37,455 bases of DNA from an uncultured Celeribacter sp. GTDB lineage: Bacteria; Pseudomonadota; Alphaproteobacteria; Rhodobacterales; Rhodobacteraceae. This document shows positions 3,759 through 21,609 of this stretch, one piece after another (the stretch's first letter is position 1; every line of letters starts with the position of its first letter). The notes beneath the pieces are model-generated. The model was not told the DNA's origin, ran no database searches, and saw nothing but the letters and a program-made list of their open reading frames with translations. The DNA lies in contig CALLMA010000064.1 of NCBI GenBank assembly GCA_938008015.1, positions 1-37,455 on the forward strand, in the 5' to 3' direction. The position numbers and the translations under genes were made by a program.

Positions 3759-3785
3759 AAATATTGCACGTCTATGGGAGGACAT

Positions 3786-6424: not shown

Positions 6425-8065
6425 ATGTCTAACAAACCACCTTTAACTGATTTGCCTATAAAAACCTCTGATGACGGTTTTTATGAAGGCTTTAATAAGT
6501 ATGTTGCGATAACATCAAAAATATTAATTGCGGTCCTTATCGTTTGGGCAATCTTCTTGCCCGTTAACGCAGATGCCGTCCTTAAAGAACTCAACAATGG
6601 CATCCTCAAAGGCTTTGCGAGCTGGTATATCTATGTATCTGCCTGCTTCATTATTGTTTGTGTTGGCTTGGCCATTATACCCCTCACCGGCCGACTTAAA
6701 CTTGGCACGGATGACCGCAAGCCAGAATTTTCAAGATTTTCATGGTTTTCGATGATGTTTGGTGCGGGGATTGGCGTTGGGATGCTTACATTTGCAACCG
6801 CTGAACCTATGTATCACTTTGCAACAAACCCGAATGTAATCATGGGCGAAACAACGGCAAGCGGCGCTGATAACGTGACGCAAGCTTATGTTTGGTCGTA
6901 CATGCATTGGGGCTTTAGCGCTTGGGCTTGTTATTCGCTTGTGGGCCTTTCACTTGCGTATTTCTCATTCCGCCGTGGCCTCCCTTTAACCATCCGTTCA
7001 GGTCTTGCGCCGCTATTTGGCAAGAGCCTCTCCGGGGTTCTTGGCCATGTTGTTGATGTTGTTGCAGTTGTGGCGACAATCTTGGGTGTGGCGCAAACGC
7101 TTGGGTTTGGCGTTGAACAATTCGTTTCAGGGCTTCACCGTGTAGGGTTTGGCGATTGGCTCGTTGGCGCTGACAGCAAACCATCGATTGCTGGTATTTT
7201 GGTTGCGCTTGTGATCATCATGGGTGCTTCTACGCTTTCTGCGCTTTCAGGTGTCGGCAAAGGGATCAAGTGGCTTTCTAACCTTAACATGGGTTTGAGC
7301 TTCATCATCTTAGGCTTCTTCTTGATCTTTGGCTCAACGTTCTTCGGCTTAGGCGCGCTCTTTGGCGGCTTGTTTGAGTATCTCATTCAACTACCAAAAT
7401 TACTCTTCACTGTCTGGAAGCCAGATGGAACAGAAACAGGCGATGCGCTTGCTGGATGGCAAGGTGGCTGGTCTGTCTTCTACTGGGCATGGTGGATTGC
7501 ATTTGCACCATTCGTGGGTGTTTTCCTAGCGCGCATCTCAGCAGGCCGTAGCATCCGCGAATACGTTTTAGGCTCAATTATTGTCCCTTCATTGATGTGC
7601 TTCGTTTGGTTTGCAATGGTTGGCGGCACTGCGATTGATCTGACGCTCAATGGCACGGCTGGCGATGCAATCTCTGGTGCAGGTCAGCAGAACCAACTCT
7701 TTGCAATGCTCGACTTCATGCTTTCAAGCGGTATTGCTTGGGTAATGGCGGCGATTGTTGTTGTTTTGCTTTTAACTTACCTTGTGACAACAGCAGATAG
7801 TGCGATTTTGATTGTGAATACGATCAATGCAGCTGGTGAAGAAAAGCCGAGCAGCCGTCCGCATATCATCTTTTGGGGCGTTGCCTTGAGTTTGACTGTC
7901 GGCGGATTACTTATCGCTGGTGGTGTTGGTGCGATCCAAAAAGCGATGGTGATTGGCGCGTTGCCATTTAGCCTCGTGATGGCATTGATGGGTGTTGCTT
8001 TGGTAAAAGCGATTATCCGTGATGCGATCCGCGAGAAAAATGGAATTTCTCAATTTAACGATTAA
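6425..8065 (+). CDS. dddT: BCCT-family transporter, probable DMSP importer DddT
   Basis: This is a 546-aa membrane protein with about 12 hydrophobic segments and the betaine/carnitine/choline transporter signature. The conserved stretches are FSMMFGAGIGVGMLTFATAEP and WAWWIAFAPFVGVFLARISAGRSIRE; the latter contains the aromatic WxWW box that binds the trimethylammonium or sulfonium group. BCCT carriers take up compatible solutes with Na+ or H+, and DddT members import DMSP. The start at 6425 has GGGAGG at 6415-6420, the same arrangement as dddD. An upstream in-frame ATG at 6380 has no such site. The 131-bp gap after dddD could hold a separate promoter. The gene ends in a strong terminator at 8087-8113. 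Glycine betaine or choline are alternative substrates. Confidence 0.85.
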   Translation: MSNKPPLTDLPIKTSDDGFYEGFNKYVAITSKILIAVLIVWAIFLPVNADAVLKELNNGILKGFASWYIYVSACFIIVCVGLAIIPLTGRLKLGTDDRKPEFSRFSWFSMMFGAGIGVGMLTFATAEPMYHFATNPNVIMGETTASGADNVTQAYVWSYMHWGFSAWACYSLVGLSLAYFSFRRGLPLTIRSGLAPLFGKSLSGVLGHVVDVVAVVATILGVAQTLGFGVEQFVSGLHRVGFGDWLVGADSKPSIAGILVALVIIMGASTLSALSGVGKGIKWLSNLNMGLSFIILGFFLIFGSTFFGLGALFGGLFEYLIQLPKLLFTVWKPDGTETGDALAGWQGGWSVFYWAWWIAFAPFVGVFLARISAGRSIREYVLGSIIVPSLMCFVWFAMVGGTAIDLTLNGTAGDAISGAGQQNQLFAMLDFMLSSGIAWVMAAIVVVLLLTYLVTTADSAILIVNTINAAGEEKPSSRPHIIFWGVALSLTVGGLLIAGGVGAIQKAMVIGALPFSLVMALMGVALVKAIIRDAIREKNGISQFND

Positions 8066-8177: not shown

Positions 8178-9440
8178 TCAGATATAAGTTCTTGCTAATT
8201 TTGCAGCGCCGACAGCCGCTTCACTTTGCGCGGCTTCCGATAAGCTCACCTTCAGGTGACGTGATCTGATTTGAGACCAAACGGCATTGTGACTGCCGCC
8301 CCCTGCAGTATAAATTTCTCGCGGAGCCGGCCCGCCTCTTGTCGCGATTTCTGTGTAACATTGCGCTTCTATCCGCGCGATGCTTTCAAGAAGACCATGC
8401 AAAAATTCCACATCACTCTCGGGTCGTGGCTCAAGAATTGGCGCAAGTTCGGGATCGTTGATTGGAAATCTTTCACCAGGTTGCAATAAGGGGTAATAGT
8501 TCAACGGCGAGATTGTATCGGGATCGATCAATGTGCTCAGAGTGTGCAACTGCGTTGGTGTGAAAAAAGATTTCAGCACAGCGCCACCGGTATTTGAAGC
8601 GCCGCCAACGAGCCAAAGATCTCCAAGGCGGTGCGAATAAAGGCCAATTTCAGGCGCATCAATGCGCTTTTTGGACAGTAATTTGACCGCGAGTGTCGAT
8701 CCTAAAGATGTAACCGCATTGCCTTCGATGCAGGGCGCGCTGGCAAGAAAGGCGGCAATGCTGTCGGTGGTTCCAGCGTGAATGATCGTTGCTTTGGATA
8801 AGCCAAATGTCTCAGCGCTTTTTTTGTAAATGGTAGATATTGCTTTGCCAGGCATATGAATTTTGGGTAAAAGATCTGGATCGATCACGGTAGAAATCCA
8901 GCTTGGCCAGTGTCCTGTTTCGGGATCAAATCCTAATTTTAGCGCGTTGTTGAAATCTGAATGGCCACCAAAACCCATCAACTTTGCGGCTATAAAATCT
9001 GCCTGATGCAAGAGATGACACGGCTTGCTCGTGGTCATGGTCATAAGTCGCATTGCACGAGCGAGGGCTGAGTTTGAGCCGCTGGTGATATGGGTTTCAT
9101 TTGTCAACTTGGCGATGCGTGCGGCCTCTGCGTGAAACCCTTTGGAATTATACATCAAGGCTGGGCTCACGGGGATGAGATTGGCATCTGTCAGAACCAT
9201 TGATCCAGACGTGCCATCGACCGCGATTGCGCCAATGCGGGCGGGGTTAACCTGCAATGCATTCAGGGCATCCATTTGGGAGTGCAGGCAGGTTCGGACC
9301 GCGTGCCACCATGCATTCGCATCGATTATATTGCCCGTCGAAGGGGGGTGATCGGCTTTGGCATCAGAAAGGACTGTGTCACCTTCTAATACGGCCGTTC
9401 GAACACCAGATGTTCCAATATCTATACCGAGTGTAAGCAT
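8178..9440 (-). CDS. FGGY-family carbohydrate kinase
   Basis: The protein has 420 aa, slightly short for FGGY kinases (usually 450-550). The N-terminal phosphate-binding loop is GIDIGTSGVRTAVLE, and the catalytic-base region is probably AVDGTSGSMVLTD. The second actin-like domain carries HAGTTDSIAAFLA and TSLGSTLAVKLLS, with the adenosine motif in AGGGSHNAVWSQI. It would phosphorylate a sugar, ketose or polyol with ATP. It is the last gene of the minus arm: its ATG overlaps the aldolase stop (TAATG), so the two are translationally coupled. A kinase followed by a class II aldolase suggests a sugar-phosphate cleaved to dihydroxyacetone phosphate plus an aldehyde. The sugar cannot be named from the sequence. 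Confidence 0.87.
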   Translation of the reverse strand: MLTLGIDIGTSGVRTAVLEGDTVLSDAKADHPPSTGNIIDANAWWHAVRTCLHSQMDALNALQVNPARIGAIAVDGTSGSMVLTDANLIPVSPALMYNSKGFHAEAARIAKLTNETHITSGSNSALARAMRLMTMTTSKPCHLLHQADFIAAKLMGFGGHSDFNNALKLGFDPETGHWPSWISTVIDPDLLPKIHMPGKAISTIYKKSAETFGLSKATIIHAGTTDSIAAFLASAPCIEGNAVTSLGSTLAVKLLSKKRIDAPEIGLYSHRLGDLWLVGGASNTGGAVLKSFFTPTQLHTLSTLIDPDTISPLNYYPLLQPGERFPINDPELAPILEPRPESDVEFLHGLLESIARIEAQCYTEIATRGGPAPREIYTAGGGSHNAVWSQIRSRHLKVSLSEAAQSEAAVGAAKLARTYI

Positions 9441-10414
9441 TAGCTGCGCTCAGCCAAAGCTTGTCTGTATTTTTCGGCGTCCCAGTTGAGCAGTTCCGCC
9501 TCCGCCTCCGCTCCAATGGGCTCAACGCTCCAGTCTTCGGGGAGGCGCAGGAGGATATCTGATAGGCATTTGAGCATTGCTTTTTGGGATATGCTCGCCC
9601 CATCTCGGAGCAATACGCCTTCGCCGCGTTTCAATATTGCCGGAGGAGTGGCCGCTGAATCGCGGGTTGCGAGCGCAGGGCCAAGGAAGACGACATGGTC
9701 GGGGTAATATGTTCCACTGAGTGCCAAGTCTGCGGCGCGCGCATTTTGCCCCAACCAGCTGTGCTCAGACCATGAAAATCCGTCTGCGGCAGGGGATGGG
9801 GGGGATGAAAAGGCTGCATCTTGGGTTGGCATTTCTAAGCGGGCTTCAACGTCACGTATTAAGGTGTCTACGGCTTGAACGCTGCTCCCACAACATATCA
9901 GGCCGTGGTTTTGCAAGATAATAACTTGGGTTTGAGGCGTCACGCGATTCAGGATTTCGCGGGTGAGTGGCAAACCTGGTTTGGCGTAAGGCACGACAAC
10001 AAATGGCAATCCATCCAATTTATCGGCTAAAGCGGTGCGGCCTTCTGGACTGATTGCATGCACCAAAGTGGCAATCGAATGAGTGTGGGCAACAACGGGC
10101 CACTCCAGTGCCGCGTGGAATGTTGTTTCTATCGAGGGGCGGAGGGTGATATTAGGGTCTAAACCAGTGGTTTTGCAACTTCCATCGCCTGCGAGCTCTC
10201 GCGCTTCTGCAACGGCTGCTGCCCGATCAACGGCCACAAAAATATCGGTGGTCTGCGCGTTCGCAAGCTCTGTGCCTGAGGCTTTAATCCACATGACATT
10301 CTCTGATTTAATGGATGTGTTCCCCCCTGGCCCTTGGACTTGTAAAGGATCTTGCCCTAGCCGAGCTGAGAGCGCGCGAAATTCAGGAGAGAGGAGATTG
10401 GAATGCGTATTCAT
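9440..10414 (-). CDS. Class II aldolase/adducin-family protein (long form)
   Basis: The protein has 324 aa, longer than the usual 210-260 because of a C-terminal extension. The first part shows the family pattern: GPGGNTSIKSENVMWIKASG near residue 30, the Zn-ligand pair in VVAHTHSIATLVHA and a third His in LQNHGLICCG. Family members cleave sugar phosphates or epimerise pentulose phosphates using Zn2+. The ATG overlaps the HAD gene stop by 4 bp and the gene runs into the FGGY kinase. A second, shorter class II aldolase lies in the opposite arm at 18555, so the pathway has two members that probably act on different intermediates. Confidence 0.86.
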   Translation of the reverse strand: MNTHSNLLSPEFRALSARLGQDPLQVQGPGGNTSIKSENVMWIKASGTELANAQTTDIFVAVDRAAAVAEARELAGDGSCKTTGLDPNITLRPSIETTFHAALEWPVVAHTHSIATLVHAISPEGRTALADKLDGLPFVVVPYAKPGLPLTREILNRVTPQTQVIILQNHGLICCGSSVQAVDTLIRDVEARLEMPTQDAAFSSPPSPAADGFSWSEHSWLGQNARAADLALSGTYYPDHVVFLGPALATRDSAATPPAILKRGEGVLLRDGASISQKAMLKCLSDILLRLPEDWSVEPIGAEAEAELLNWDAEKYRQALAERS

Positions 10415-11247
10415 CGGATTTCTTTCATGCGGTATGTAGGCTGTTGGCAGGCGTTTTTTGTGAGCAGTCGGTGAAGCGTTGCATCACTTGGGTCTGCGGC
10501 AAAAGCATCACGGTACAGACCGCCCTCGATCAGAACGCTATCCCAACCCGCCTTTTGTGCGCCCGCGATGTCATGTTCCAAACTATCCCCCACCATGAGG
10601 AACCGCCCCTTGCCCATGGCGGCCTCAATGGAACGGAAAATTGGCAGATGTGGTTTGCCATAGAAGGAAACTTCGCCGCCGATGTCGCGGTATGCATAAG
10701 CCAAGGCGCCTGGTGAGATGACATCGCCTTGTGCCCGTGGGCTGCGGCGATCTGGATTGGAGCAATAGACGGGCAGTTTGCGTTGTATCCATGTTTGGAG
10801 TTGATGTGCATAATCTGACATTTGTGCGCCATCGGGCAGGCCCATAAGTAAAACGGCTTGCGCTTCTTCGGGATCATCGGTGATTTGGATGTCGAGGCCA
10901 TCGGCCCAAATTAGCGCGTCGCCTTTATGACGTTCAATCGGGAAAAAGCGGCGTTGTGCAATGACGCCTTGCCGAAGATCTTGCCAAAGCGCTTCACCGC
11001 TGGTCATGACGTAATCAAACAGCGAAATGTCAAATCCCATTTGCGCGATGCGTGTTGCATTGGGAGCGGCGCGTTTTCCAGAATTGGATAAGACGCCGAG
11101 TTTATAGGGGCCATCGCCGAGCGCGCTGATTGCGGCCACGGCGCTAGCATAGGGGGATGTTCCATTGTGCAAAACACCCCACTGATCAAAGACAAGGGCA
11201 TCGTAGAGAGGCGCAATGTCTTTGAGTGATGTTAGAACTTTGGTCAC
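10411..11247 (-). CDS. HAD-superfamily class IIA hydrolase (TIGR01459-like)
   Basis: The protein has 278 aa. Motif I is FDQWGVLHNG with nucleophile Asp21, in the DxWGV form of this NagD-related subfamily. Motif II is in LSNSGKRAA, the lysine motif in GKPHLPIF and the acidic motif in MVGDSLEHDIAGA. The cap domain sits between motifs II and III, as in class IIA. It is probably a cytoplasmic sugar-phosphate phosphatase acting on a product or side product of the kinase/aldolase steps. It starts 4 bp after the upstream hydrolase gene and overlaps the aldolase gene by 4 bp. The exact substrate is unknown. Confidence 0.86.
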   Translation of the reverse strand: MTKVLTSLKDIAPLYDALVFDQWGVLHNGTSPYASAVAAISALGDGPYKLGVLSNSGKRAAPNATRIAQMGFDISLFDYVMTSGEALWQDLRQGVIAQRRFFPIERHKGDALIWADGLDIQITDDPEEAQAVLLMGLPDGAQMSDYAHQLQTWIQRKLPVYCSNPDRRSPRAQGDVISPGALAYAYRDIGGEVSFYGKPHLPIFRSIEAAMGKGRFLMVGDSLEHDIAGAQKAGWDSVLIEGGLYRDAFAADPSDATLHRLLTKNACQQPTYRMKEIR

Positions 11248-11251
11248 GGCT

Positions 11252-12184
11252 CTAGTATTCTGCCATATCTTTTGGATCGACTAAGCTTGCGATAAATGCA
11301 TCCGCATCTGCTTGGCTCAGTTTTGGGGCTGCTTTATCGGCCATCCCTGCGGGCATATCTCCAAAGTAGAACTTATAGCCGGGAATTGGCTGGCGGCGTT
11401 TGCGCAGGGGCATGCCTTCATATGGGAAAACATCTGAGCGTGCGTTCGCCGCTTCATCGTGACAAGGCAGGACATAATCTGCACGCTTGTCGATCTCTTC
11501 AACAGATTTCCAACCTTCATAAGAATTTACAAAACGCGCGGGAACCCAATAGCGCCATTGCTCTGAAGGGTTTGGATCGAGATTGCGCTCAACGAAAATA
11601 GCATCGCCTGCGATGACAATATCCCCCATGGCGGTGGCCACACTCACGCACATATGTCCAACTGAATGGCCGGGTGTGTGGAACATTGTGATGCCTGGAA
11701 GAACTTCGCATTCATCTTCAATGGCTTCAAAGACGCATCCTGCATAGGCTTGCTCGACGCCGATGTTCGCTTCGTAGGTCCGATAATAGAGTGGCAAAGG
11801 ATTATAGGCCATTTCGATTTCGGCTTTAGGCGCAATATAGCGGGCGTTTTTGAACTCTTTCATGTTCTGCACGTGATCCCAATGCAAGTGTGTGAACACA
11901 ATCGCATCGATTTCATCAGGGTGTACGCCAAGCTTTTGTTCGAGATGCTCATGCACTTGAAGGCAGCCGCGCTTTTCGCATTTATGATGGTATTTCGTCG
12001 CGCGCTCTTCGTCTGGCAGGCCTGTATCAATTAGAATTTTATGGGTGCCTGTGTCGACATAGTGGCAATAGACCGGATTCCAGTATTTCTTTCCCGCAGG
12101 TCCCTTCCAAAAGATATAGGTGCCCAAATCAGCCTCGAGCCAACCTGTATTGATTGGGTAAATCTTTGTTTCGGTAACGCCCAT
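11252..12184 (-). CDS. Metallo-beta-lactamase-fold hydrolase, lactonase-like
   Basis: The 310-aa protein has the MBL metal motif FTHLHWDHVQN (HxHxDH), a further His in FHTPGHSVGHM, the bridging Asp in VIAGDAIF and a final His in LPCHDEA. The layout resembles N-acyl-homoserine lactonases of the AttM/AiiB type. In this sugar operon a lactone or ester hydrolase for a sugar lactone is at least as likely as quorum quenching. The start at 12184 (ATG) is chosen because AAGGAG precedes it by 8 bp; the in-frame TTG at 12202 lies before that ribosome site. It is the first gene of the minus arm, and the GntR-type operator at 12211-12224 covers its promoter. Confidence 0.84.
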   Translation of the reverse strand: MGVTETKIYPINTGWLEADLGTYIFWKGPAGKKYWNPVYCHYVDTGTHKILIDTGLPDEERATKYHHKCEKRGCLQVHEHLEQKLGVHPDEIDAIVFTHLHWDHVQNMKEFKNARYIAPKAEIEMAYNPLPLYYRTYEANIGVEQAYAGCVFEAIEDECEVLPGITMFHTPGHSVGHMCVSVATAMGDIVIAGDAIFVERNLDPNPSEQWRYWVPARFVNSYEGWKSVEEIDKRADYVLPCHDEAANARSDVFPYEGMPLRKRRQPIPGYKFYFGDMPAGMADKAAPKLSQADADAFIASLVDPKDMAEY

Positions 12185-12210
12185 GACTATGTCTCCTTGC
12201 AATCATTCTA

Positions 12211-12242
12211 TTTTGTATACAAAAATAAGAAACTGAATGCAA
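12211..12242 (-). promoter_or_regulatory. Promoter and perfect GntR-type operator of the hydrolase-kinase operon
   Basis: TTTTGTATACAAAA (12211-12224) is a perfect 14-bp palindrome. Read on the minus strand, a -35 TTGCAT (12237-12242) and a -10 TATACA (12214-12219) are 17 bp apart, so the palindrome overlies the -10 box, a position expected for repression. The same core recurs twice before the ABC transporter operon (12969 and 12989), which ties both arms to one regulator. Confidence 0.75.
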
Positions 12243-12271
12243 TTGCAAGGATAAATTCAATAACGAGGCAA

Positions 12272-12916
12272 TTAATTTGCCCTTAGTGCTTGTAAAAAGC
12301 TCTCTGTCATGTGGCTGCGCATACCTTTGGATGCGGCGGCCGAATCTTCGCTAAAGATGTCGTTGATTAACTCTTGGTGGCTTTGAGCGGATGCGATGAG
12401 ATCCTCTTTCGTTTGGAATTTTTTGGAACGGAAGGGGCCGGTTCTGCGACGAAACTCCGATGCAATTTCAGCCATATAGGGGTTGCCTGTTGATTTGTAG
12501 ATGGCCATATGGAAGGCTTCGTTGGCGCGGAGGTATGCTGTGCGATCGCCCGCTTTTGCGGCGGCAATGCAATTCGCTTGGGCTGTCTCAATATCTGTGC
12601 GAGATAGTAGGGTAAGCCGTTGCGAGGCAATGCGAGCACAGGCTGCTTCGATTTCATGCATAGCTTCAAAAATTTGTGCCAGTTCCTCTCGATCATATTG
12701 CGCGACAAAAACGCCGCGCCGCGCTCCTTCGACAAGGATGCCTTGTGCCGTCAGGCGAGTGAGTGCTTCTCGCACAGGTGTTCGGGACGCTTCAAAGCGC
12801 GCCGCCAGCCCAGCTTCATCAAGACGCACCCCGGGCTCGAGCTCGCCGGCGGCTATTTCTTCCATAAGAGCGGCTTCAATTCGTTTGGTGACTGAAATTT
12901 TTGCTGGTTCGCGCAT
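12272..12916 (-). CDS. GntR-family regulator (FadR/FCD subfamily)
   Basis: The protein has 214 aa. The N-terminal winged helix is RIEAALMEEIAAGELEPGVRL, then FEASRTPVREALTRL and GVFVAQYD. The C-terminal all-helical FCD ligand domain includes FHMAIYKSTGNPYMAEI, with metal-binding His positions such as SHQELI and MRSHMTE. FCD regulators usually repress until they bind a sugar acid or organic acid. The gene lies between the two arms: it is divergent from the ABC operon and codirectional with the minus operon, whose own promoter is downstream of it. AGGAG precedes the ATG. Binding to the TTTTGTATACAAAA sites on both sides is inferred from position. Confidence 0.9.
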   Translation of the reverse strand: MREPAKISVTKRIEAALMEEIAAGELEPGVRLDEAGLAARFEASRTPVREALTRLTAQGILVEGARRGVFVAQYDREELAQIFEAMHEIEAACARIASQRLTLLSRTDIETAQANCIAAAKAGDRTAYLRANEAFHMAIYKSTGNPYMAEIASEFRRRTGPFRSKKFQTKEDLIASAQSHQELINDIFSEDSAAASKGMRSHMTESFLQALRAN

Positions 12917-12968
12917 TATTATCTCCTAATGTTGGCAAGAATATATCATCAAAAAGGTAAATAATCAA

Positions 12969-13002
12969 TTTTGTATATTTACTTTTCACTTTGTATGCAA
13001 AA
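12969..13002 (+). promoter_or_regulatory. Two GntR-type operator half-matches over the ABC-operon promoter
   Basis: TTTTGTATATTT (12969-12980) and CTTTGTATGCAAAA (12989-13002) match the perfect palindrome at 12211 at 9 and 12 of 14 positions. They are spaced 20 bp apart, about two helical turns. A plausible promoter coincides with them: -35 TTGTAT (12971-12976) and -10 TATGCA (12994-12999) with a 17-bp spacer. Occupancy would block the ABC operon and could also affect the divergent GntR gene. Confidence 0.68.
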
Positions 13003-13031
13003 TGATCAATTAAGACAGGGAGAGAGATTCG

Positions 13032-14129
13032 ATGCCAAAAATTGAACTAAAAGGTCTGATTAAGCGCTATGGTGATGTTCAGGTGCTGCACGGCATTGAT
13101 CTAACGATGGCAGATAACGAATTTACAGTTCTCGTTGGGCCTTCTGGTTGCGGCAAGTCGACAACCTTGCGGATGATCGCGGGATTAGAGAGCGTGTCTG
13201 ACGGCGATATATATGTCGATGGGAAGCGGATCAGTCATCTGGAGCCGAAAGACCGCGGGTTGGCGATGGTTTTCCAAGATTATGCACTTTATCCTCATAT
13301 GAACGTTGCCCAAAATATCTCATTCGCATTGCGCCTTCAAAAGGTCGCTAAGTCTGACATTGATAAGAAGGTTAAAGAGGTGGCAGATCTTGTCGGTTTG
13401 ACCTCCTTTTTACACCGCAAACCGGGAGCGCTTTCTGGGGGGCAACGCCAACGTGTTGCAATGGCGCGCGCGCTTGCAAAAGATAGTGACATTTTTCTAT
13501 TCGATGAGCCTTTGTCCAACTTAGATGCGAAATTACGTGGCCAGATGCGCGCAGAGCTTGCAATTATGAGCCAACGCGTTCAAAAAAATATGATATATGT
13601 GACCCACGATCAAGTTGAAGCTATGACTTTGGCGGATCGTATTGTGGTGATGAATGGAGGATATATTCAGCAGCAAGGCACGCCAGAAGAATTGTTCAAA
13701 CGACCAGCTAATAAATTCGTTGCGGGCTTTCTTGGGATGCCACCTATGAATTTTCTGGATGGTGAAATTGAGCACCGTGATGGGGCGGCATTTGTTGTGG
13801 GTGAGGGGTTCGCGCTGCGGCTTGCGGGAGAGAAAGCACAGATAGCGGCCACGCATTCTAATAAGGCGGTGACTTTGGGCATTCGCCCATCTGATTTGAA
13901 TTTCGCGGCGGATACGCCTGAGGATCAATCATTGACGCTGGATGTTATGGTTTCAGAATATATAGGCGCCCAATCGGTGCTCATGTGTAGTTGCGGGTCA
14001 AATCGGGTCACCGTTGAGGTGAATTCGGAGACTCCGATGGCTTTGGGGGAAACCCTAAGGTTCGAGGTAAACCTGAATCGGGTGCACCTATTTGATCGTC
14101 AGAGCGGAGAGGCGCTTAGACGTTTGTAA
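13032..14129 (+). CDS. Sugar ABC transporter ATP-binding protein (CUT1, MalK/UgpC type)
   Basis: The protein has 365 aa. It carries Walker A GPSGCGKST (36-44), the Q-loop in MVFQDYALYPHM, the signature LSGGQRQRVAMARAL, Walker B IFLFDEPLSNLDAKLR and the switch His in YVTHDQVEAMTLA. The C-terminal TOBE/OB regulatory domain is of MalK type. It powers uptake through the two permeases encoded downstream. It is the first gene of the plus arm, with GGGAGAGAG before the ATG. In many CUT1 operons the ATPase comes last, so this order is a slight variation. Confidence 0.93.
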   Translation: MPKIELKGLIKRYGDVQVLHGIDLTMADNEFTVLVGPSGCGKSTTLRMIAGLESVSDGDIYVDGKRISHLEPKDRGLAMVFQDYALYPHMNVAQNISFALRLQKVAKSDIDKKVKEVADLVGLTSFLHRKPGALSGGQRQRVAMARALAKDSDIFLFDEPLSNLDAKLRGQMRAELAIMSQRVQKNMIYVTHDQVEAMTLADRIVVMNGGYIQQQGTPEELFKRPANKFVAGFLGMPPMNFLDGEIEHRDGAAFVVGEGFALRLAGEKAQIAATHSNKAVTLGIRPSDLNFAADTPEDQSLTLDVMVSEYIGAQSVLMCSCGSNRVTVEVNSETPMALGETLRFEVNLNRVHLFDRQSGEALRRL

Positions 14130-14148
14130 TCTCTTGGGAGGAGAAAAA

Positions 14149-15465
14149 ATGAAGATGTTTAAGACAGCAACAGCGGCCCTAGCTCTGATGTCCAGCGCAG
14201 TGCTCGCAAACCCATATGCAGAGTATGAAGGCACGACACTGATTGTCAATTTTCCAGCACATCCGCATTATGATGCGGTTATGCAAATTTTGCCTGAATT
14301 TACGGCACAAACAGGTATCGAAGTTGAAGTGGATCAATTGCCATATCTTGCGATGCGTGAACGTCAGACGTTGGAATTGTCACAAGATGAGGGCGAATAT
14401 GATTTGATTGCATATGTCGTCTTTTCTAAGGCGGATTATGTCTATGCCGATCAGCTCGAAAACTTAGCCAAATATTTCATGAACCCAACCCTCGCCGATC
14501 CGAGCTATGATGCCTCTGATCTGATCGATGGTTATGTTTATAATATTGGTTTTGCCGGTGGTGATCGGGGTTATCTATCTGGTCCAACAGGATCTTTGTT
14601 TGGTTTGCCTTATGGTTCTGAGACATCTGTTTTGGGATACCGTAAGGATATTTTTGAAAAGCATGGTTTAGAAGTGCCAAGCACCTATGCTGAAATGTTG
14701 GAATTGGCATGTTTAATTCCAACTCTTGAGCCTGGAATGGGAGGACTTGCTTCTCGTGCGGCATCTGGCCACCATGCGGCACATGCCTTTCTGTTACACC
14801 TCAACCCATTAGGCGGCGGCATTTTTGATGATAATTGGCAGCCTATAATGAACAGTGCTGAAGGTGTCGCGGCGGCTCAGGCTCTAAAAGACATTGTCGA
14901 TTGTGGTCCAGAAGGGGCAACAACCTTTGGCTTTGGTGAAGCGTTGGGCGCTTTCTTGAATGGCGATACAGCAATGTATCTCGATACAACAGTTGTTGCA
15001 GGGCAGATTGATGATCCTGAGCGTAGCCAAGTTGTTGGAAAAGTTGGTTGGGCGATGCATCCAATGGGCACAGAGCGGGCCAGCCAAACGGGTGGTTTTG
15101 GCATCGGCATCCCAGCAAATGCGGAGCACAAAGAAGCTGCTTTCCTTTTGATGCAATGGCTAACATCGCGTGAAGGCGATAAATTGGTCGCACTTGCAGG
15201 GGGGAACCCATCTCGCTTCTCGACACATGCAGATGCCGATGTGAACGCCGCCTTCCCACATATGGCCACCTTCGGGGAAGCCTTGCAATATGCGGATCCT
15301 GATTGGCGTCCTATTATTCCAGTGTGGGGTAAGATCAATGCAGATCTTGGAACAACACTCAGCCAAGTTTTAACGGAAGATTTGGATATCCAAGAAGCGC
15401 TCGACGGTGTCGCAAAACGCACACGCGTTACGATGGAAGAAGCGGGCTACTACACTTGGAAGTAA
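14149..15465 (+). CDS. Sugar ABC transporter substrate-binding protein (family 1)
   Basis: The protein has 438 aa with a clear signal peptide (KMFKTATAALALMSSAVLA, cleavage near ANP). The mature part has the family 1 solute-binding pattern, with GLPYGSETSVLGYRKDIFEKHGLEVP and FLNGDTAMYLDTT, and it would bind the substrate in the periplasm. The start at 14149 is preferred because GGGAGGAG lies directly upstream; an in-frame start at 14092 overlaps the ATPase gene and would bury the signal peptide. A stem-loop follows the gene (15485-15509). Acidic and aromatic residues are plentiful, but the sugar cannot be deduced. Confidence 0.92.
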   Translation: MKMFKTATAALALMSSAVLANPYAEYEGTTLIVNFPAHPHYDAVMQILPEFTAQTGIEVEVDQLPYLAMRERQTLELSQDEGEYDLIAYVVFSKADYVYADQLENLAKYFMNPTLADPSYDASDLIDGYVYNIGFAGGDRGYLSGPTGSLFGLPYGSETSVLGYRKDIFEKHGLEVPSTYAEMLELACLIPTLEPGMGGLASRAASGHHAAHAFLLHLNPLGGGIFDDNWQPIMNSAEGVAAAQALKDIVDCGPEGATTFGFGEALGAFLNGDTAMYLDTTVVAGQIDDPERSQVVGKVGWAMHPMGTERASQTGGFGIGIPANAEHKEAAFLLMQWLTSREGDKLVALAGGNPSRFSTHADADVNAAFPHMATFGEALQYADPDWRPIIPVWGKINADLGTTLSQVLTEDLDIQEALDGVAKRTRVTMEEAGYYTWK

Positions 15466-15484
15466 GCTGATCTCATAAAAGCGG

Positions 15485-15509
15485 CAGCCCCTTTTGAAAT
15501 CTGGGGCTG
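15485..15509 (+). promoter_or_regulatory. Intercistronic stem-loop after the binding-protein gene
   Basis: CAGCCCC (15485-15491) pairs with GGGGCTG (15503-15509) around an 11-base loop, in the 86-bp gap before the first permease. No T-run follows. This suggests an mRNA-stabilising or partial-termination hairpin that lets the binding protein be made in excess over the permeases, a common arrangement. Confidence 0.6.
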
Positions 15510-15551
15510 TTGCATCGATCACTCAAATAACCTGATTAAAGGATAGCATTC

Positions 15552-16463
15552 GTGAACCGCCAATTTATGAACCGCATGACGCCCTATATGTTCATGGCTC
15601 CGGCCGCGATCATACTTGCGATCGCGTTGATCTATCCGCTGGGCTATATGATGTATGGATCCTTGTTGAATTGGAATCCAAGCCAAAGCATTTCTGAAGC
15701 CGAGTTTGTAGGGTTCAAAAATTACGTTGATCTATTTTATGATCCGTTCTTTCGCAAAAGTTTTTCAGTGACGCTGACTTTCGCCTTTGTGGTTGTTATT
15801 GCTGAGATGGTCATGGGGGTAGGGCTTGCGCTGCTTCTCGATCGCAATATTCGCGGCATGTCTGTGTTGCGCACATTATTCATTTTGCCGATGATGATCG
15901 CCCCTGTCGTGGTTGGTCTCATGTGGCGCTATATGTATCATCCAACTGTGGGCACATTTAACCGTACTTTAGAAAGTATAGGGTTGGAAAAGATAGATTG
16001 GCTTGGCCAGAATGCGCTTTTATCTGTGATTATTGCTGATATCTGGCAATGGACTCCCTTTATCTTCATTCTCTCATTGGCTGCGCTGCAATCTTTACCG
16101 CAATCGGCGATGGAGGCTGCGCGCATTGATGGGGCGACTGGATGGCAGCAAATTTGGTTTATTAAATTGCCTATGATGCTGCCCATCTTAATCGTTACGG
16201 CCTTACTTCGGTTGATTGACGCTTTCAAAGTTCTCGAAGTGATTTTGGTTATGACGGATGGTGGGCCGGGCCAAACGACTGAAATTTTGGCCATGCGTAT
16301 TTCGCGCACCGCCTCCGAATTCCGCGAATTGGGCGTTGCAGCGGCAATGTCAAACTACTTGCTGCTCATGTTGATGTTTTTCACAGTTTGCATGTTTGGC
16401 TTCACCCGTTGGCAAGAACGCCGCGCTGTTAAAATAGCGGCCGCGATCCAAGAGGACGAATAA
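15552..16463 (+). CDS. Sugar ABC transporter permease (MalF-like)
   Basis: The protein has 303 aa and about six membrane segments. The first is PYMFMAPAAIILAIALIYPLG. The EAA loop that contacts the ATPase is AMEAARIDGATGWQQIWFIKLP (about 188-209). The start is GTG at 15552, with AAAGG 9 bp upstream; the next in-frame ATG is at 15570. It ends one base before the second permease gene begins, so the two are coupled and form the heteromeric channel. Confidence 0.92.
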   Translation: MNRQFMNRMTPYMFMAPAAIILAIALIYPLGYMMYGSLLNWNPSQSISEAEFVGFKNYVDLFYDPFFRKSFSVTLTFAFVVVIAEMVMGVGLALLLDRNIRGMSVLRTLFILPMMIAPVVVGLMWRYMYHPTVGTFNRTLESIGLEKIDWLGQNALLSVIIADIWQWTPFIFILSLAALQSLPQSAMEAARIDGATGWQQIWFIKLPMMLPILIVTALLRLIDAFKVLEVILVMTDGGPGQTTEILAMRISRTASEFRELGVAAAMSNYLLLMLMFFTVCMFGFTRWQERRAVKIAAAIQEDE

Positions 16464-16464
16464 A

Positions 16465-17403
16465 ATGGCTGATAAGGTTTACGAAAAACAAAATCCTGCA
16501 TTCTATGCTTTATTGGTGGCATTGATCTTTATGTCGGTTGGTCCGATTGCCTTGATGTTTATCAACAGCTTTAAGTTGGACGTTGATATTATTGGCGGGA
16601 CTGGCGGGCTTTTGTTTATGCCGACCATTCAGAATTATGAAACTGCTCTATGTGATGTGTTATGGTACGAACCTGAGCATCTGCGGTTTTGCCAACTTAA
16701 GTTTGGTGGCGCCTTCACCAATTCTTTGATCATTGCGCTCATTTCAACGGTGCTCACCTTGGTGATCGGATGTATGGCGGCCTATGCATTGGTGCGCTTT
16801 CGGTTTTTTGGCCGCGATACGGCATCATTAACAACCCTTCTTGTTCGCATGGTGCCACCCGCCGTTCTTTTAGTGCCTGTTTTTGGCTTATGGAATAATG
16901 AATTTTGCTTAGATCGTGATGGCTTGATTGGCGGTTACATCCGCGAGACCTTTGGTGGCCGAGGCGATGTCTGTTTGGCGGGGACGCACTCTGGCATCAT
17001 CTTGATCTATGTTGCGATGAACTTGCCGTTTGTGATTTGGATTTTACAGAGTTTCATTGTTCAAGTGCCCAAATCTTTGGAAGAGGCGGCGCGCGTCGAT
17101 GGGGCTGGGCCGTTTCAAGTCTTTTTTATGGTGGTTTTACCTTTAATAAAACCAGGCCTCGCGGCCGCTGCCATTTTTACTTTCCGCATTGCGTGGAACG
17201 AATATCTCTTGGCTTCTGCTTTATCTGATCGTGATACACAAACGGTGCCGATCTTGATTGTGAATAACATGTCTGAATTCAATGTAGAATGGGGTGTTGT
17301 CATGGCAACGGGCATGCTGCTGGCCATTCCACCCATTATTTTCACCCTCTTTGCCAGCCGCCAAATTATCACAGGCATGACGGCCGGTGCTGTAAAAGGG
17401 TAG
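16465..17403 (+). CDS. Sugar ABC transporter permease (MalG-like)
   Basis: The protein has 312 aa. Its EAA loop is SLEEAARVDGAGPFQVFFMVVLP and hydrophobic segments run throughout (ALLVALIFMSVGPIALMFI at the start). It is slightly longer than usual: a Cys-containing periplasmic loop (CDVLWYEPEHLRFCQLKFG) and a second insertion (NEFCLDRDGLIGGYIRETFG, continuing GRGDVCLAG) are present. These Cys pairs could form periplasmic disulfides. It partners the preceding permease, with one base between the genes, and is followed 3 bp later by the Tm-1-like gene. Confidence 0.91.
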   Translation: MADKVYEKQNPAFYALLVALIFMSVGPIALMFINSFKLDVDIIGGTGGLLFMPTIQNYETALCDVLWYEPEHLRFCQLKFGGAFTNSLIIALISTVLTLVIGCMAAYALVRFRFFGRDTASLTTLLVRMVPPAVLLVPVFGLWNNEFCLDRDGLIGGYIRETFGGRGDVCLAGTHSGIILIYVAMNLPFVIWILQSFIVQVPKSLEEAARVDGAGPFQVFFMVVLPLIKPGLAAAAIFTFRIAWNEYLLASALSDRDTQTVPILIVNNMSEFNVEWGVVMATGMLLAIPPIIFTLFASRQIITGMTAGAVKG

Positions 17404-17406
17404 ACC

Positions 17407-18543
17407 ATGTCCAAAGTCATTGTCCTTGCGACTGTTGCAACAAAATCTGAAGAAGTTGATTTTTTCGTTGCACGGTTGGCTGAGTGTGGGATGCAGGCCC
17501 AGATCCTTGATATTTCCTTGAATACGGGGGGTGTCATTCTTGGAGGCAAAGAAAAATGCCATGCAATGGATCAGGTGGCACAAATGGCCCTTGCGCAGGT
17601 TGATGCGGCACGCATGGAGGATGCGCAAGGGGTTGTGGCGATTGGAGGGGGAACGGGCGGTGAAATAGCCTTGCAGGTTTTGCGCGCGTTGCCTATTCAC
17701 TTTCCTAAAATTATGGTGACGACTTTGCCCTTTGATCCGCGTTTTGTGGTGGCAGATAATTCGATCATTATTGTGCCCACTTTGGCCGATATTTCCGGAT
17801 TAAACGCGACGCTGCGCGAGGTATTGGCCAATGCTGCTTTGATGACGAGTGGTTTGTGCGGACGCGGCAAAAAAGATGAGCTCACGCGCCTTAATCGTTC
17901 AGTCGGAATTACGGGTCTCGGGGCGACGGATGGTGCGGTCAAACCTTTGTTGAAGAAATTCTCCCAACAGGGCAGGGAGGCCACGGTATTTCACGCCAAT
18001 GGTTTTGGGGGGGCGGCCTTTGCTCGGTTTGCACAGCAAGATGCATTTGATGCGATTATCGATCTCACACCCCATGAGCTGACACGCATTTATCTCGCTG
18101 GTGTTCATGCGGATATGCCAACACGATTTTCAGCAGGGGGCAGTTTGCCTCGTATCGTTTTGCCAGGTGGTATGAATTTTATTGGCCTTGGAGAAAAATC
18201 ACTGGTTCAATCGCATTACCTCTATCGTCCGCATTATGAACATTCGGGGCTTTTTACCCATGTCAAATTGATGGCGGAAGAAATGGCTCTGGTCAGCACG
18301 CAGCTCGCCGTTCATCTGAATGCCCTTGCCGGCCCTTGCTCTGTTATTGTGCCGATGGGGGGATTTTCTCATCAAGATTGTGCAGGCGGCCCGATTGAAG
18401 ATGAAGATTTGCGAGCGGTTTGCTTGGAGACGCTGCGCCGACATCTCAGAGATAATATTACAATAACCCCAATTGACGCACATATTTTTGCGCCTGAAAT
18501 TACAGAGGCGATCATGAGTAAACTTGCAGATATTTCTTCTTGA
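17407..18543 (+). CDS. Tm-1-like ATP-binding domain protein (UPF0261)
   Basis: The protein has 378 aa. It matches the UPF0261/Tm-1-like pattern from memory: MSKVIVLATVATKSEEVDFF at the start, GVVAIGGGTGGEIALQVLRALP, PKIMVTTLPFDPR and a second half with IVLPGGMNFIGLGEK and VIVPMGGFSHQD. The plant Tm-1 protein binds ATP and inhibits tobamovirus replication. In bacteria the family is mostly uncharacterised and is often fused or adjacent to a TIM-barrel partner, which is not seen here. It lies 3 bp after the ABC permease and 11 bp before a class II aldolase. A catabolic role, perhaps an ATP-dependent step on the imported compound, is inferred from context only. Confidence 0.85.
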   Translation: MSKVIVLATVATKSEEVDFFVARLAECGMQAQILDISLNTGGVILGGKEKCHAMDQVAQMALAQVDAARMEDAQGVVAIGGGTGGEIALQVLRALPIHFPKIMVTTLPFDPRFVVADNSIIIVPTLADISGLNATLREVLANAALMTSGLCGRGKKDELTRLNRSVGITGLGATDGAVKPLLKKFSQQGREATVFHANGFGGAAFARFAQQDAFDAIIDLTPHELTRIYLAGVHADMPTRFSAGGSLPRIVLPGGMNFIGLGEKSLVQSHYLYRPHYEHSGLFTHVKLMAEEMALVSTQLAVHLNALAGPCSVIVPMGGFSHQDCAGGPIEDEDLRAVCLETLRRHLRDNITITPIDAHIFAPEITEAIMSKLADISS

Positions 18544-18554
18544 AAGGACACCAG

Positions 18555-19205
18555 ATGCACGATCTGAACGAAAAAAAAGACGCCCTTATCGCAGCGGCAA
18601 AGCGCTGTTTTGATCTGCGTTTGCAAACAAATGCAGGGGGTAATTTATCTGTTCGGTTGGAGAGTGCTGATGCTATTGTGATCAAGCCTTCTGGCGTTGG
18701 GTTCAACGAATGCACGCGTGACAATTTACAAGTGGTTCATTTGGATGGGACGATTGAAACATCCGACTATAAGCCATCCAAAGATCTTGATTTTCATCTC
18801 GATCTCTACCGTATTCGCCCCGATATCAATGCCGTGGTCCATTGTCATAGCCCTTGGGCGACAGGTTATGCGAGTGCCGGCATCGAAATTCCATGTCTGA
18901 CTGTACAGACCATCGAAAAAATCGGGCGCATGCCGCTCATCCCCCTATCGCCTCAAGGTGGGCCGCAAACGGACAAAGAAATCAGCCCCGTTTTTCAAGA
19001 TACCAATGTTGTCGCGGCAGTTCTGGCCAATCATGGCACCATTGGCGTGGGGTCTACCTTAATGAAGGCACAGTATTTGGCGGAAATCATTGAAGAGACA
19101 GCTCACATTGCTTTTGTCCGCGATACAGTGATGGCCGCGCACGGCAAGACGGCTGCGGATTTGCCACAATACGGCACTGCAGCGGATGCTCGCAAAGCGG
19201 GCTAA
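18555..19205 (+). CDS. Class II aldolase/adducin-family protein (short form)
   Basis: The protein has 216 aa, the classic FucA/AraD length. It shows RLQTNAGGNLSVRLE (phosphate loop), IKPSGVGF, the Zn-ligand pair in VVHCHSPWATGYA and the third His in VLANHGTIGVG. It would catalyse a retro-aldol or epimerase step on a sugar phosphate. ATG at 18555 is chosen because AAGGA (18544-18548) is 6 bp upstream; the in-frame TTG at 18540 overlaps the previous stop. It is the last gene of the plus arm and is followed by a terminator at 19269. Confidence 0.88.
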   Translation: MHDLNEKKDALIAAAKRCFDLRLQTNAGGNLSVRLESADAIVIKPSGVGFNECTRDNLQVVHLDGTIETSDYKPSKDLDFHLDLYRIRPDINAVVHCHSPWATGYASAGIEIPCLTVQTIEKIGRMPLIPLSPQGGPQTDKEISPVFQDTNVVAAVLANHGTIGVGSTLMKAQYLAEIIEETAHIAFVRDTVMAAHGKTAADLPQYGTAADARKAG

Positions 19206-19292: not shown

Positions 19293-19770
19293 GTGGGTGA
19301 AAACGAATCAAAACATCGCCGTTTCGATTAGTCAGAAGAATTTGAGCGAAGAAACCGCTCATAGCCTGACGTTATTTAACGTATTGTTTTTGCACCTTAA
19401 TGTTCGTTATTGAGGGGGCCTTGCCTGTGGATATTAACCTTTTGCTGAGAACCTGTTTTCATTCTTGACACCAATCAATTATACCGTATTTACCACACTT
19501 TAAAAAGCGCTCGGCGAAGTTGACTTCGTGACTTGAGCTGGTTTTGGCATGGCAAATGATCGTGAGTTTTTGATGTCTGTTTCTAACTTAGAGCTTCGCA
19601 CACCGTTTTGTGTCACGGATGTGTTCTGCGTACTCAGGGCGCTGAAAGTTGCCCCGCATTCTCAACGGTTGAGATGTGGCCCCTAACCTACATATCTCAC
19701 ACCATGCAATGAACAGGCGTTGAAATGTAGGCTCATTTCCGCCCAAATATTCGAATATAAAGGCAAGAAC
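19293..19770. other. Non-coding stretch upstream of Hint protein 1
   Basis: No convincing gene was found in this 478-bp stretch. It holds a second copy of TAAAAAGCGCT (19501-19511; first copy 19267-19277 in the terminator) and a CGAAGT/ACTTCG inverted repeat at 19515-19528. A possible promoter is TTGACA (19465-19470) with TATTTA 16 bp downstream (19487-19492). If that promoter is real, the Hint gene has a leader of about 270 bases. Confidence 0.4.
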
Positions 19771-21609
19771 ATGGCAATAATTGATTATCGTGGTTTCTCT
19801 ACAAATACCGACTCCATTCGTGTGAACGATGGGGATACGATCATTGTGCATCAGTTCGAAGCAGATGGCGTCACCCCTGTTGATTTTAATGGCAGCACGC
19901 TTCGCATCAGCTCCGATACCGGCCAACCCGTTAAAGTTACGATTATTTTTGATGGCGATTATTCAGCGTCAAACTTGGGCACATTTGTTATTAACAACGG
20001 AGTTGGGGTCAATGGTGATGATGTCGTCGCTGATCTTATTGTAAAAGAAGGCAGTACGGTTGTTAACGATTTTGAATATTCTGGTTTCCCAGGGGGAACA
20101 GCTGCGGATCCCACAATAACAACTATCACGCTTGAGGATGATGTCACGTTCGAAGGCTCAATTGAGCTGAATGATCCACAAAGTAACAACACCAATGCGA
20201 TCATCAATATTACCACTGGTGATAATGTGAAAATTGGTGTGGATGGCACGGATACCAATGATACATTCATCTCTGGTAATATTCGTGGCTCGGACGATCA
20301 TCAAGTCAACGTCACACTCGGTGAAAACAACACTTTATTTAGCATTCTAAACGATACGCAATTTTTGGCTCTCAACAGCAGTGGGACAACGCCCCTGAAT
20401 ATCAGCGGTAGCACAATTGATGTTGATAACTCTGCATTTCTAACAACTAATGGTCTAAGCAATCTCGATATTACGACGATTACCAGTACAAATATTATTG
20501 CCAATAATGTGACTATCGAAAGTTCGACTCACCAGTTTGTTCTTGGGCATCAGGGCGATGATGTCATTGAGATGAATGGCTTGGTGGTCAATAATATAAC
20601 AACTGACGGTCGTCTTGTTCTTACAACCGGGACGGGCGATGATACTTGGACAATTGGTGGTGATGCCATTCATACTGGCACGGATCCCGCCGACTCCATC
20701 ACATTTCGGGCCCTGACCGTTGATGGCGGCCTCCCTGACGATGATAACGATACGCTGATCTTCCGCCCTGTCAATCAAGCCCAGCTTGATGAGTTTATCG
20801 CCAGTTTGGAGGCGAACCTTGATGAAACAAAAACTTCAGGCACAGCTGGCGTAAATGCCGTTGGGGATGCATATACAATCGCGAATGCAGACGCTGACGC
20901 CAACAATGGGGTGTTCATCAACCAGACTGATGGGTCAGGCAATATATTATTCACTCAATTTGAGACGATTATTATCGGTGACTTTATATGTTTCGCCGCG
21001 GGTACGCTCATCGATACACCCAATGGGCGCACCGCTGTTGAGGATTTAGTTGTTGGCGATCTTGTTGAGACATTTGATAACGGGGCGCAGCCTGTGCGCT
21101 GGATCAAAAGCCGTAAAATATCAAAAGCTGATTTGGCAGCCAATCCAAAGTTGACGCCAATAAAAATTCAAGCCGGCTCACTTGGGCAGAATATGCCTAT
21201 GCAAGACTTGGTTGTCAGTCCTCAGCATCGCATTATGGTGTCTTCAAGGCTGTCTAAGCGGATGTTTGGCGAAAGAGAGGCGTTAGTCGCTGCAAAACAA
21301 CTCTTGCCAATAGCAGGCGTGGACTATGCGGATGTGGATGAAGTTACCTATGTTCACTTCATGTGTGATCAGCATGAAATCGTATTTGCGGAAGGTATGC
21401 CCTCTGAAACGCTTTATGCTGGGAAAGAGACGCTCAAAACGATCCCTCGTGAATCTGTAGAAGAACTTTTTGCGATTTTTCCAGAGCTTCATGAAGTTGA
21501 AAATGGATTTGTTCCTGAACCAGCTCGCTTGTTGGTAAGAGGCCGATTGGCGCGCAATTTCGCCAACCGTGCGGCGCGAAATAAGAGAGAGTTGTTTAGC
21601 TTGCGCTAA
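19771..21609 (+). CDS. Hint-domain (hedgehog/intein-like) protein 1 with repetitive beta-rich N-terminus
   Basis: The protein has 612 aa. Residues 1-400 are rich in Asn, Asp, Thr and Gly, with RTX-like stretches (GHQGDDVIEMNG, TGTGDDTWTIGGDA) suggesting a secreted beta-solenoid or Ca2+-binding region. No N-terminal signal peptide is seen, so type I export is a possibility. The C-terminal Hint domain starts at Cys407 (CFAAGTLIDTPNGRTAVEDL), with a block-B type His in VVSPQHRIMV and DQHEIVFAEGMPSETLY further on. Such Hint_2 proteins are abundant in Rhodobacteraceae and their function is unclear. The start at 19771 has AAAGG upstream; an in-frame start at 19720 has none. Confidence 0.85.
   Translation: MAIIDYRGFSTNTDSIRVNDGDTIIVHQFEADGVTPVDFNGSTLRISSDTGQPVKVTIIFDGDYSASNLGTFVINNGVGVNGDDVVADLIVKEGSTVVNDFEYSGFPGGTAADPTITTITLEDDVTFEGSIELNDPQSNNTNAIINITTGDNVKIGVDGTDTNDTFISGNIRGSDDHQVNVTLGENNTLFSILNDTQFLALNSSGTTPLNISGSTIDVDNSAFLTTNGLSNLDITTITSTNIIANNVTIESSTHQFVLGHQGDDVIEMNGLVVNNITTDGRLVLTTGTGDDTWTIGGDAIHTGTDPADSITFRALTVDGGLPDDDNDTLIFRPVNQAQLDEFIASLEANLDETKTSGTAGVNAVGDAYTIANADADANNGVFINQTDGSGNILFTQFETIIIGDFICFAAGTLIDTPNGRTAVEDLVVGDLVETFDNGAQPVRWIKSRKISKADLAANPKLTPIKIQAGSLGQNMPMQDLVVSPQHRIMVSSRLSKRMFGEREALVAAKQLLPIAGVDYADVDEVTYVHFMCDQHEIVFAEGMPSETLYAGKETLKTIPRESVEELFAIFPELHEVENGFVPEPARLLVRGRLARNFANRAARNKRELFSLR

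Follow-up and report, generated by a model that had tools for sequence, protein, structure and literature searches.

What does a protein of the UPF0261/Tm-1-like family do between an importer and an aldolase? The question arises at positions 8178 to 19205 of a 37,455-nucleotide stretch of DNA from an uncultured Celeribacter sp. (contig CALLMA010000064.1, assembly GCA_938008015.1; the whole stretch is referred to as the window), for which a sequence-only reading had listed the genes and had taken the role of the UPF0261 protein as the main question, rightly so in our view. All eleven genes of the cluster were confirmed at their coordinates by Pfam and NCBIfam annotation, in two divergent arms around a GntR/FCD regulator gene, and the Pfam search, which covered ten of the eleven proteins (all but the short aldolase), gave a family above cut-off in each. 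The minus-strand operon encodes, in this order, a metallo-beta-lactamase-fold (MBL) hydrolase, a HAD-IIA protein, a long class II aldolase and an FGGY kinase, and ends at 8178, and the plus-strand operon encodes a CUT1 importer, the UPF0261 protein and a short class II aldolase. With UPF0261 counted as the predicted kinase, one kinase/aldolase pair closes each operon.

We propose a GntR-controlled catabolic cluster with an early-acting UPF0261 kinase and two kinase/aldolase pairs, and we give this proposal, taken as a whole, about even chances of being right. Its basis consists of the gene content, the conservation, the common operator, the co-occurrence of MBL, UPF0261 and short aldolase, and the clade-specific partner of UPF0261; the kinase role, the order of the steps and the binding of the regulator are inferences. 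The cluster itself is real, conserved, co-regulated as judged by its operator footprint, and was not found described.

A conserved cluster with a common operator

Relatives were collected in a scan of species genomes that started from 15 UPF0261 proteins, including that of the window, and the best 80 of 96 confirmed loci were used; as loci were picked by UPF0261 similarity, all locus counts are conditional on UPF0261. Of the 53 named loci that span 20 kb or more, 48 hold all 11 genes (tblastn, at least 35% identity). The earlier claim of one catabolic unit is supported. All four importer genes are missing in L101 and three in L154, where an ATPase-like match of 49% remains; L164 lacks the ATPase and L169 the HAD protein, and L117 (Pseudovibrio axinellae) retains the importer genes and UPF0261 alone. 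The loci belong mostly to Rhodobacterales, and also to Stappiaceae, Rhodospirillaceae, Beijerinckiaceae, Tepidamorphaceae and others.

UPF0261/Tm-1-like proteins as such were found in 132 of 295 genomes that were sampled in the family of the window. A relative of the window's protein at E 1e-30 was found in 29 of 385 sampled genomes of the class, with at least 45% identity in four of them (the window's own genome, G485, G294 and G671). The one other sampled genome of the genus, G260, has no MBL, no UPF0261 of the short clade to which the window's protein belongs and no short aldolase, and the cluster is therefore accessory in the genus. UPF0261 relatives occur in 334 plasmid records, none of which appears to be of the short clade, judging by the best 15 of the 334 (27.9-29.5% identity), and each of three plasmid loci that were inspected adjoins a gene of the 'phosphoenolpyruvate hydrolase family'. 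As a side observation, genome G056 carries, besides a full cluster on another contig, a further UPF0261 stretch that has decayed and contains four stop codons (G056:C22:13379-13867; loci L073, L092); it lies near a short-aldolase match.

For the operator, both promoter gaps were cut out of 67 distinct loci (76 before identical pairs were removed). A TTTTGTATACAAAA-like palindrome is present in both gaps in 61 of the 67 loci with at most three mismatches, and in 47 with at most two, as compared to first-order Markov control gaps, in which at most three mismatches were reached in 1.6% and 1.4%, and in both gaps together in 0 of 3350 simulated pairs. Therefore, one regulon with co-regulation of both arms is well supported by a conserved operator footprint, the loci being related to each other, and the earlier view of two arms under one regulator and one operator is backed at the level of a footprint, not of expression. 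The palindromes would be bound by the GntR/FCD regulator of the cluster. In the window's own genome, one further site with a single mismatch was found besides the window copy (C14:2861), in a scan in which a reversed control pattern gave more matches (6 versus 2 per strand).

The UPF0261 protein as a putative kinase

Both domains of the family were recognized above their cut-off of 27 bits (PF06792, 82.7 bits; PF23189, 151.7 bits), with the N-terminal domain match beginning at model position 67, and the NCBI subfamily NF002674 (PRK02399.1-2) was missed with 285.6 bits at a cut-off of 335. When the predicted structure model of the protein (mean pLDDT 89.8) was compared with the PDB, the best match by E-value was 9mpy, which is Saro_1862 of Novosphingobium aromaticivorans with bound acetovanillone (profile match E 1.3e-59), followed by Tm-1. 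According to the accessible part of PMC13101465 (2026), which cites Hall et al. 2025, acetovanillone catabolism in N. aromaticivorans begins with MarK, a single-component kinase, and Saro_1862 is probably MarK, an equation of names that is ours. The window's protein is of the same family and fold. In an alignment of three UPF0261 clades (28, 44 and 12 rows; the divergent L036, L037, L042, L053, L057, L088, L117 and L181 were dropped), 27 positions are conserved, of which 24 are identical in 9mpy. The conserved core residues of the family are thus shared, but the protein is not in the same clade as 9mpy or orthologous to it: it belongs to a separate clade, is about 26% identical, and sits with aldolases and a CUT1 importer. 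Another 24 positions are clade-specific, and among these H223, R227, H285 and R336 are basic or His residues unlike those of the other groups and of 9mpy, which would suit an anionic substrate. K50, R112 and R207 were rejected as clade-specific charge gains, as basic residues are found there in other clades or in 9mpy. A two-component kinase, HpeHI, which is related to phenylphosphate synthase, is described in PMC9618137, and the accessible parts of PMC9618137, PMC13406360 and PMC12607616 do not mention UPF0261.

Could the UPF0261 protein instead lack catalytic activity and serve the importer or the aldolase as an ATP-dependent subunit or chaperone, evolving fast because it is structural? Its fast divergence, its position beside transport genes and the fusion to an ABC ATPase in one clade would agree with this, but polar and glycine positions are kept across clades, the protein is retained in loci without CUT1 importer, and because there is a kinase precedent in the family, it need not be accessory. 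We consider such a structural role unlikely; the protein probably acts as a kinase of an unusual type and not as an accessory factor. In the annotated loci, UPF0261 lies beside importer genes (in the CUT1 operon of the window it is the last but one gene), and as it accompanies importers in the window as well as in L204 and L191, this fits an early step after uptake. Taken together, it is likely that UPF0261 is an early ATP-dependent kinase that feeds the short aldolase.

UPF0261 clades and the TIM-barrel partner

The sequence-only reading had pointed out that UPF0261 occurs here without its TIM-barrel partner (TBST, PF09370). The absence as such stands: unlike in the Tm-1/UPF0261-TBST system, with which the UPF0261 fold is shared at a TM-score of up to 0.78, PF09370 was not found in the window's own genome (a 2.0 Mb draft, 86% complete), neither free nor fused. 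That this absence makes the protein unusual had to be rejected, as 10 of 15 sampled genomes of the same family with UPF0261 proteins of another kind also lack PF09370, and as MarK is described as single-component. The domain was found in 7 of 40 genomes tested. Two of these are among the 15 genomes with the short clade or its divergent relative (in G209), and each of the two has further UPF0261 copies; the other five are among 15 genomes with other UPF0261 only, and none of 10 genomes without any UPF0261 has the domain. In its accessible part, PMC5028733 (2016) states that of 504 bacterial genomes encoding the TIM-barrel protein, 491 (97.4%) encode UPF0261 as well, and the converse is not claimed there.

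A careful tree was built from 64 rows, for which the TBST rows had been reduced to 25 of 48 and those of the short clade to 13 including the window, and five rows with long branches had been omitted. In this tree, the short, the TIM-barrel-paired and the aldehyde-dehydrogenase-linked groups each fall on one side of a branch, with 12 unlabelled rows not counted, and 9mpy stands apart on a long branch; by BLAST, 9mpy reaches at best 150 bits to the short clade versus 214 bits to the TBST group. A larger tree with 103 rows, in which the short clade is represented by 28 of its 82 rows and by the window, was labelled by neighbours within 2.5 kb, some loci extending only 1.5 kb, and required 6 label changes for TBST, 5 for aldehyde dehydrogenase and 3 for the short aldolase. 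The short clade is split off in this tree at 100% support, with 29 rows beside a short aldolase gene and two without, L117 and L164, and in L164 another class II aldolase gene adjoins UPF0261.

Other clades show arrangements of their own. In L204, an example of the TIM-barrel clade, UPF0261 is located behind an ABC ATPase domain in one fused 719-aa protein (L204:6289-8448), BPD_transp_2 permease genes adjoin the fused gene, and a PF09370 gene is directly downstream. Another clade without TIM-barrel partner (L184, L191, L194 and similar loci) is linked to aldehyde dehydrogenase, and in L191 UPF0261 follows TctABC (by Pfam) and aldehyde dehydrogenase.

Two proposed kinase/aldolase pairs

Genome-wide co-occurrence was analysed for MBL, UPF0261 and the short aldolase. 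Of 196 genomes that represent the order, 19 have an MBL match at E 1e-60 or better, the window's own among them, and these belong to 7 genera; all 19 MBL-positive genomes also have both the short-clade UPF0261 and the short aldolase, as opposed to 0 of 20 MBL-negative genomes (the first 20 of 177). The divergent locus L088 of genome G209, of which 13.0 kb of an 18.9-kb contig were read, matches MBL at 71%, UPF0261 at 35% and the short aldolase at 51%; the rest of the set gave no match within this stretch, and a long-aldolase relative (45%) is found on a different contig of G209.

Pairwise distances were correlated over the 52 loci with matches to all 11 genes. The FGGY kinase and the long aldolase are best partners of each other (r 0.75), and UPF0261 correlates with the importer ATPase (0.78), GntR (0.76) and the short aldolase (0.67). 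In L086, L170 and L131, the FGGY kinase and the long aldolase have diverged together (37-43%), whereas MBL, the solute-binding protein and the short aldolase remain at 68-83%. This joint divergence and the distance correlations, which are found mainly within each arm with GntR grouping with the plus arm, lead us to distinguish two kinase/aldolase pairs, in which the short aldolase goes with UPF0261 and the long aldolase with FGGY. The same two observations could also be read as two independent catabolic modules, most simply the two arms, that only have their regulator in common. However, the arms are clustered together in almost all of the 53 loci and have the operator in common, and we regard full independence as improbable.

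Enzyme families and known pathways

The nearest solved relatives of the FGGY kinase are AtXK-1 (phmmer 4.5e-94) and then SePSK (1.3e-84), and the xylulokinase XylB model (TIGR01312) was missed with 98 bits at a cut-off of 380.25. In its accessible part, PMC4880283 reports D-ribulose kinase activity for SePSK and the importance of D8, T11 and D221. As these positions are kept in the window's kinase (alignment read by eye), a D-ribulose-like ketose is a fair guess for its substrate. The kinase differs from SePSK and AtXK-1, with which it shares the FGGY family, in its adjoining class II aldolase gene. This long aldolase resembles the aldolase domain of PRK08324/RhaD-type bifunctional proteins, with an extra C-terminal stretch, and its His110, His112, His170 and Glu96 are near-invariant, as are H96, H98, H160 and D77 in the short aldolase. 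The nearest solved relative of the latter is 6btd, and the 25 NCBIfam families listed for it, out of 28 that match, are all of the aldolase/epimerase type, each below cut-off. MBL has the HxHxDH metal motif (H99, H101, D103 and H104, near-invariant in 53 rows) and is nearest to 4-pyridoxolactonase (88.3 bits, cut-off 325) and AiiA (79 bits, cut-off 375), in both cases below the cut-off. The binding protein has 5iai and 4rya as nearest solved relatives, the latter being named a sorbitol-type binding protein; deducing the substrate from this homology was dropped, as the two suggest no more than a polyol-like ligand.

A DxD motif is usual in HAD phosphatases. The HAD protein of the cluster scores above cut-off on TIGR01459 (146.6 bits, cut-off 103.75) and has DQWG in place of DxD, with D21 and Q22 near-invariant, which makes a role in dephosphorylation doubtful. 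This concerns the linear route that had been suggested from the sequence, which leads from import via lactone opening by MBL, phosphorylation and aldol cleavage to dephosphorylation; we take it to have FGGY as its kinase, HAD as its phosphatase and UPF0261 as an accessory protein. Each of the named gene families is indeed present, MBL is nearest to lactonases, and the MBL distances track those of FGGY and the long aldolase. In addition to the doubtful HAD step, one route does not explain two aldolases, no genome tested has MBL and the short aldolase without UPF0261, and neither FGGY nor the long aldolase nor HAD is seen in the part of L088 that was read. Nor is a linear route the only one, as there are two kinase/aldolase pairs, of which that of FGGY and the long aldolase varies independently. 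We consider the linear route unlikely.

Might the cluster be a variant of a characterized pathway, such as ascorbate (Ula), 3-oxo-tetronate (OtnC) or apiose/apionate catabolism? The Ula pathway has an MBL lactonase and an AraD-like epimerase, and in the 3-oxo-tetronate pathway OtnC is a decarboxylase of the class II aldolase fold that acts with an acid-sugar kinase. The enzyme folds are alike, the short aldolase scores on the OtnC and AraD models, and a non-classical kinase beside a short class II aldolase is common to the window and the 3-oxo-tetronate pathway. However, the equivalog cut-offs are missed widely (OtnC, the 3-oxo-tetronate 4-phosphate decarboxylase NF043034: 95.2 bits, cut-off 250; AraD: 83 bits, cut-off 389), the window's kinase is of another family, and the Ula pathway is not known to have a place for UPF0261 or FGGY. 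In agreement with the earlier statement that the set is no named pathway, no description of the eleven-gene set was found in the open-licence literature among the matches listed (20 of 1,588 for partial matches). We consider a variant of a known pathway very unlikely.

Importer exchange as a substrate clue

A further clue comes from the importer, which was surveyed in the 74 loci with enough upstream sequence out of 82 (80 named loci plus L088 and L090). The CUT1 importer is not nearby in seven of the 74 (L088, L090, L101, L135, L153, L154 and L157). Sulfatases were found in 5 of these 7 loci versus 2 of the 67 with importer, and TctA or TctC in 5 of the 7 (four of the sulfatase loci and L135; in L153 the contig ends) versus TctA in 2 of 67. 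Fisher tests of importer absence against sulfatases and against Tct gave p 2.6e-5 each, uncorrected for kinship, with L090 and L157 looking alike. Five sulfatases were scored on choline-sulfatase, arylsulfatase and PehA models and all stayed below cut-off; in one sulfatase family of ten, C-x-P-A-R is present in 9, and the tenth has no N-terminus. Reading by eye, no signal peptide was evident in the complete sulfatases, and no sulfatase is among the annotated genes of the window. Cytoplasmic desulfation of an imported anion is thus plausible in sulfatase-bearing strains. Sulfatases and carboxylate transporters in loci without CUT1 importer hint at an anionic substrate, and we take an anionic, perhaps sulfated, compound as a lead. 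Operator-like sites were also seen at the start of the TctC gene in L090 (18778, three mismatches) and L157 (14620, two mismatches), and none with at most three mismatches ahead of this gene in L154 and L101, so that an operator ahead of TctC in L090 and L157 is suggestive only.

Proposed pathway

How could these components work together? The cluster would be inducible, with one GntR/FCD regulator binding to the TTTTGTATACAAAA-like sites ahead of both arms. The imported compound would be small and polar, probably a sugar acid, a polyol or a lactone-like anion, and would enter here through the CUT1 system; in some relatives, a tripartite carboxylate transporter appears to take over this task, and desulfation would be added. 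If a lactone is present, MBL would open the ring. UPF0261 would phosphorylate with ATP early after uptake, the short class II aldolase would then cleave a carbon-carbon bond or decarboxylate, and the FGGY kinase and the long aldolase would handle one product, plausibly a ketose. A more far-reaching idea sees in the short UPF0261 clade a new kinase class for carbohydrates or sugar acids. Its members would phosphorylate an anionic marine metabolite, sulfated in some strains, as soon as it has been taken up, and pass the product to a dedicated class II aldolase, in an undescribed pathway across Alphaproteobacteria. We put this forward tentatively, with the balance leaning somewhat against it in this full form. 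The short clade is likely a new kinase clade, and the substrate of the cluster is possibly anionic.

Several observations weigh against the proposed pathway. The UPF0261 model superimposes better on Tm-1 (TM-score 0.78) than on 9mpy (0.63), and the low identity to 9mpy and the separate grouping have to be added to this. The GGGTGG and PFDPR stretches of UPF0261 compare to GGSMGS and no PFDPR in 9mpy, so its chemistry may differ, and the segments around residues 80-84 and 108-112 are unlike those of 9mpy. Within the set, conservation is lowest in UPF0261, whose median identity is 49% (next is HAD with 52%), as compared to 82% in the short aldolase and 84% in MBL; this is odd for a central enzyme. 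MBL distances correlate with FGGY (0.53) and the long aldolase (0.50) rather than with the short aldolase (0.44) and UPF0261 (0.38), which does not favour a unit of MBL, UPF0261 and short aldolase; the placement of MBL among the modules is thus less clear than co-occurrence suggests, and the partial coverage of the L088 contig weakens that locus as an example with these three genes only. AtXK-1, the nearest relative of the FGGY kinase, was stimulated by D-ribulose only to a limited extent according to the accessible part of PMC4880283. Scans for promoters and terminators gave 12 and 16 hits, with 14.0 and 14.8 expected from shuffles. Finally, there is no redox enzyme or isomerase within the eleven-gene set, and a complete route therefore cannot be drawn.

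Features and neighbouring genes

Table 1. Features of the catabolic cluster, with positions in the window.
Feature	Positions	Strand	Basis
FGGY carbohydrate kinase	8178..9440	-	Pfam; phmmer
Long class II aldolase	9440..10414	-	Pfam, NCBIfam; His110, His112, His170, Glu96 near-invariant
HAD-IIA protein	10411..11247	-	TIGR01459 above cut-off; motif DQWG
MBL-fold hydrolase	11252..12184	-	Pfam; HxHxDH present
Operator palindrome TTTTGTATACAAAA ahead of minus-strand operon	12211..12224	.	Exact match, GntR/MBL gap
GntR/FCD transcriptional regulator	12272..12916	-	Pfam, NCBIfam
Second operator CTTTGTATGCAAAA, 2 mismatches	12989..13002	.	Divergent GntR/ATPase gap
CUT1 ATPase, UgpC subfamily	13032..14129	+	450.6 bits, cut-off 432
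Extracellular solute-binding protein	14149..15465	+	Pfam; nearest solved 5iai, 4rya
CUT1 permease A	15552..16463	+	Pfam
CUT1 permease B	16465..17403	+	Pfam
Short-clade UPF0261 (Tm-1-like), predicted ATP-dependent kinase	17407..18543	+	Pfam, structure match, tree
Short class II aldolase (AraD/FucA superfamily), UPF0261 neighbour	18555..19205	+	NCBIfam models, below cut-offs

Beyond the cluster, the plus strand of the window encodes an IS6 family transposase at the window edge (85-831, above cut-off) and, in series at 2082-8065, a GMC oxidoreductase, an 839-aa protein with two class III CoA-transferase stretches and a BCCT transporter, an arrangement that we take to resemble a DddD-type operon for dimethylsulfoniopropionate (DMSP) catabolism. 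Further downstream, two Hint_2-domain proteins without NCBIfam name (19720-21609 and 26204-27463, plus strand) flank a histidine kinase/response regulator pair.

Implications

Pfam models still label UPF0261/Tm-1-like proteins as uncharacterized. With a short clade that has a fixed enzyme partner, a defined operon, an operator and an importer, the role of such a protein becomes directly testable, and the exchange of a sugar importer for a carboxylate transporter and sulfatases is a concrete hint at what the substrate may be. If the proposal is true, it would add a pathway of carbon use to marine roseobacters and some other Alphaproteobacteria, and a further type of kinase to carbohydrate metabolism.

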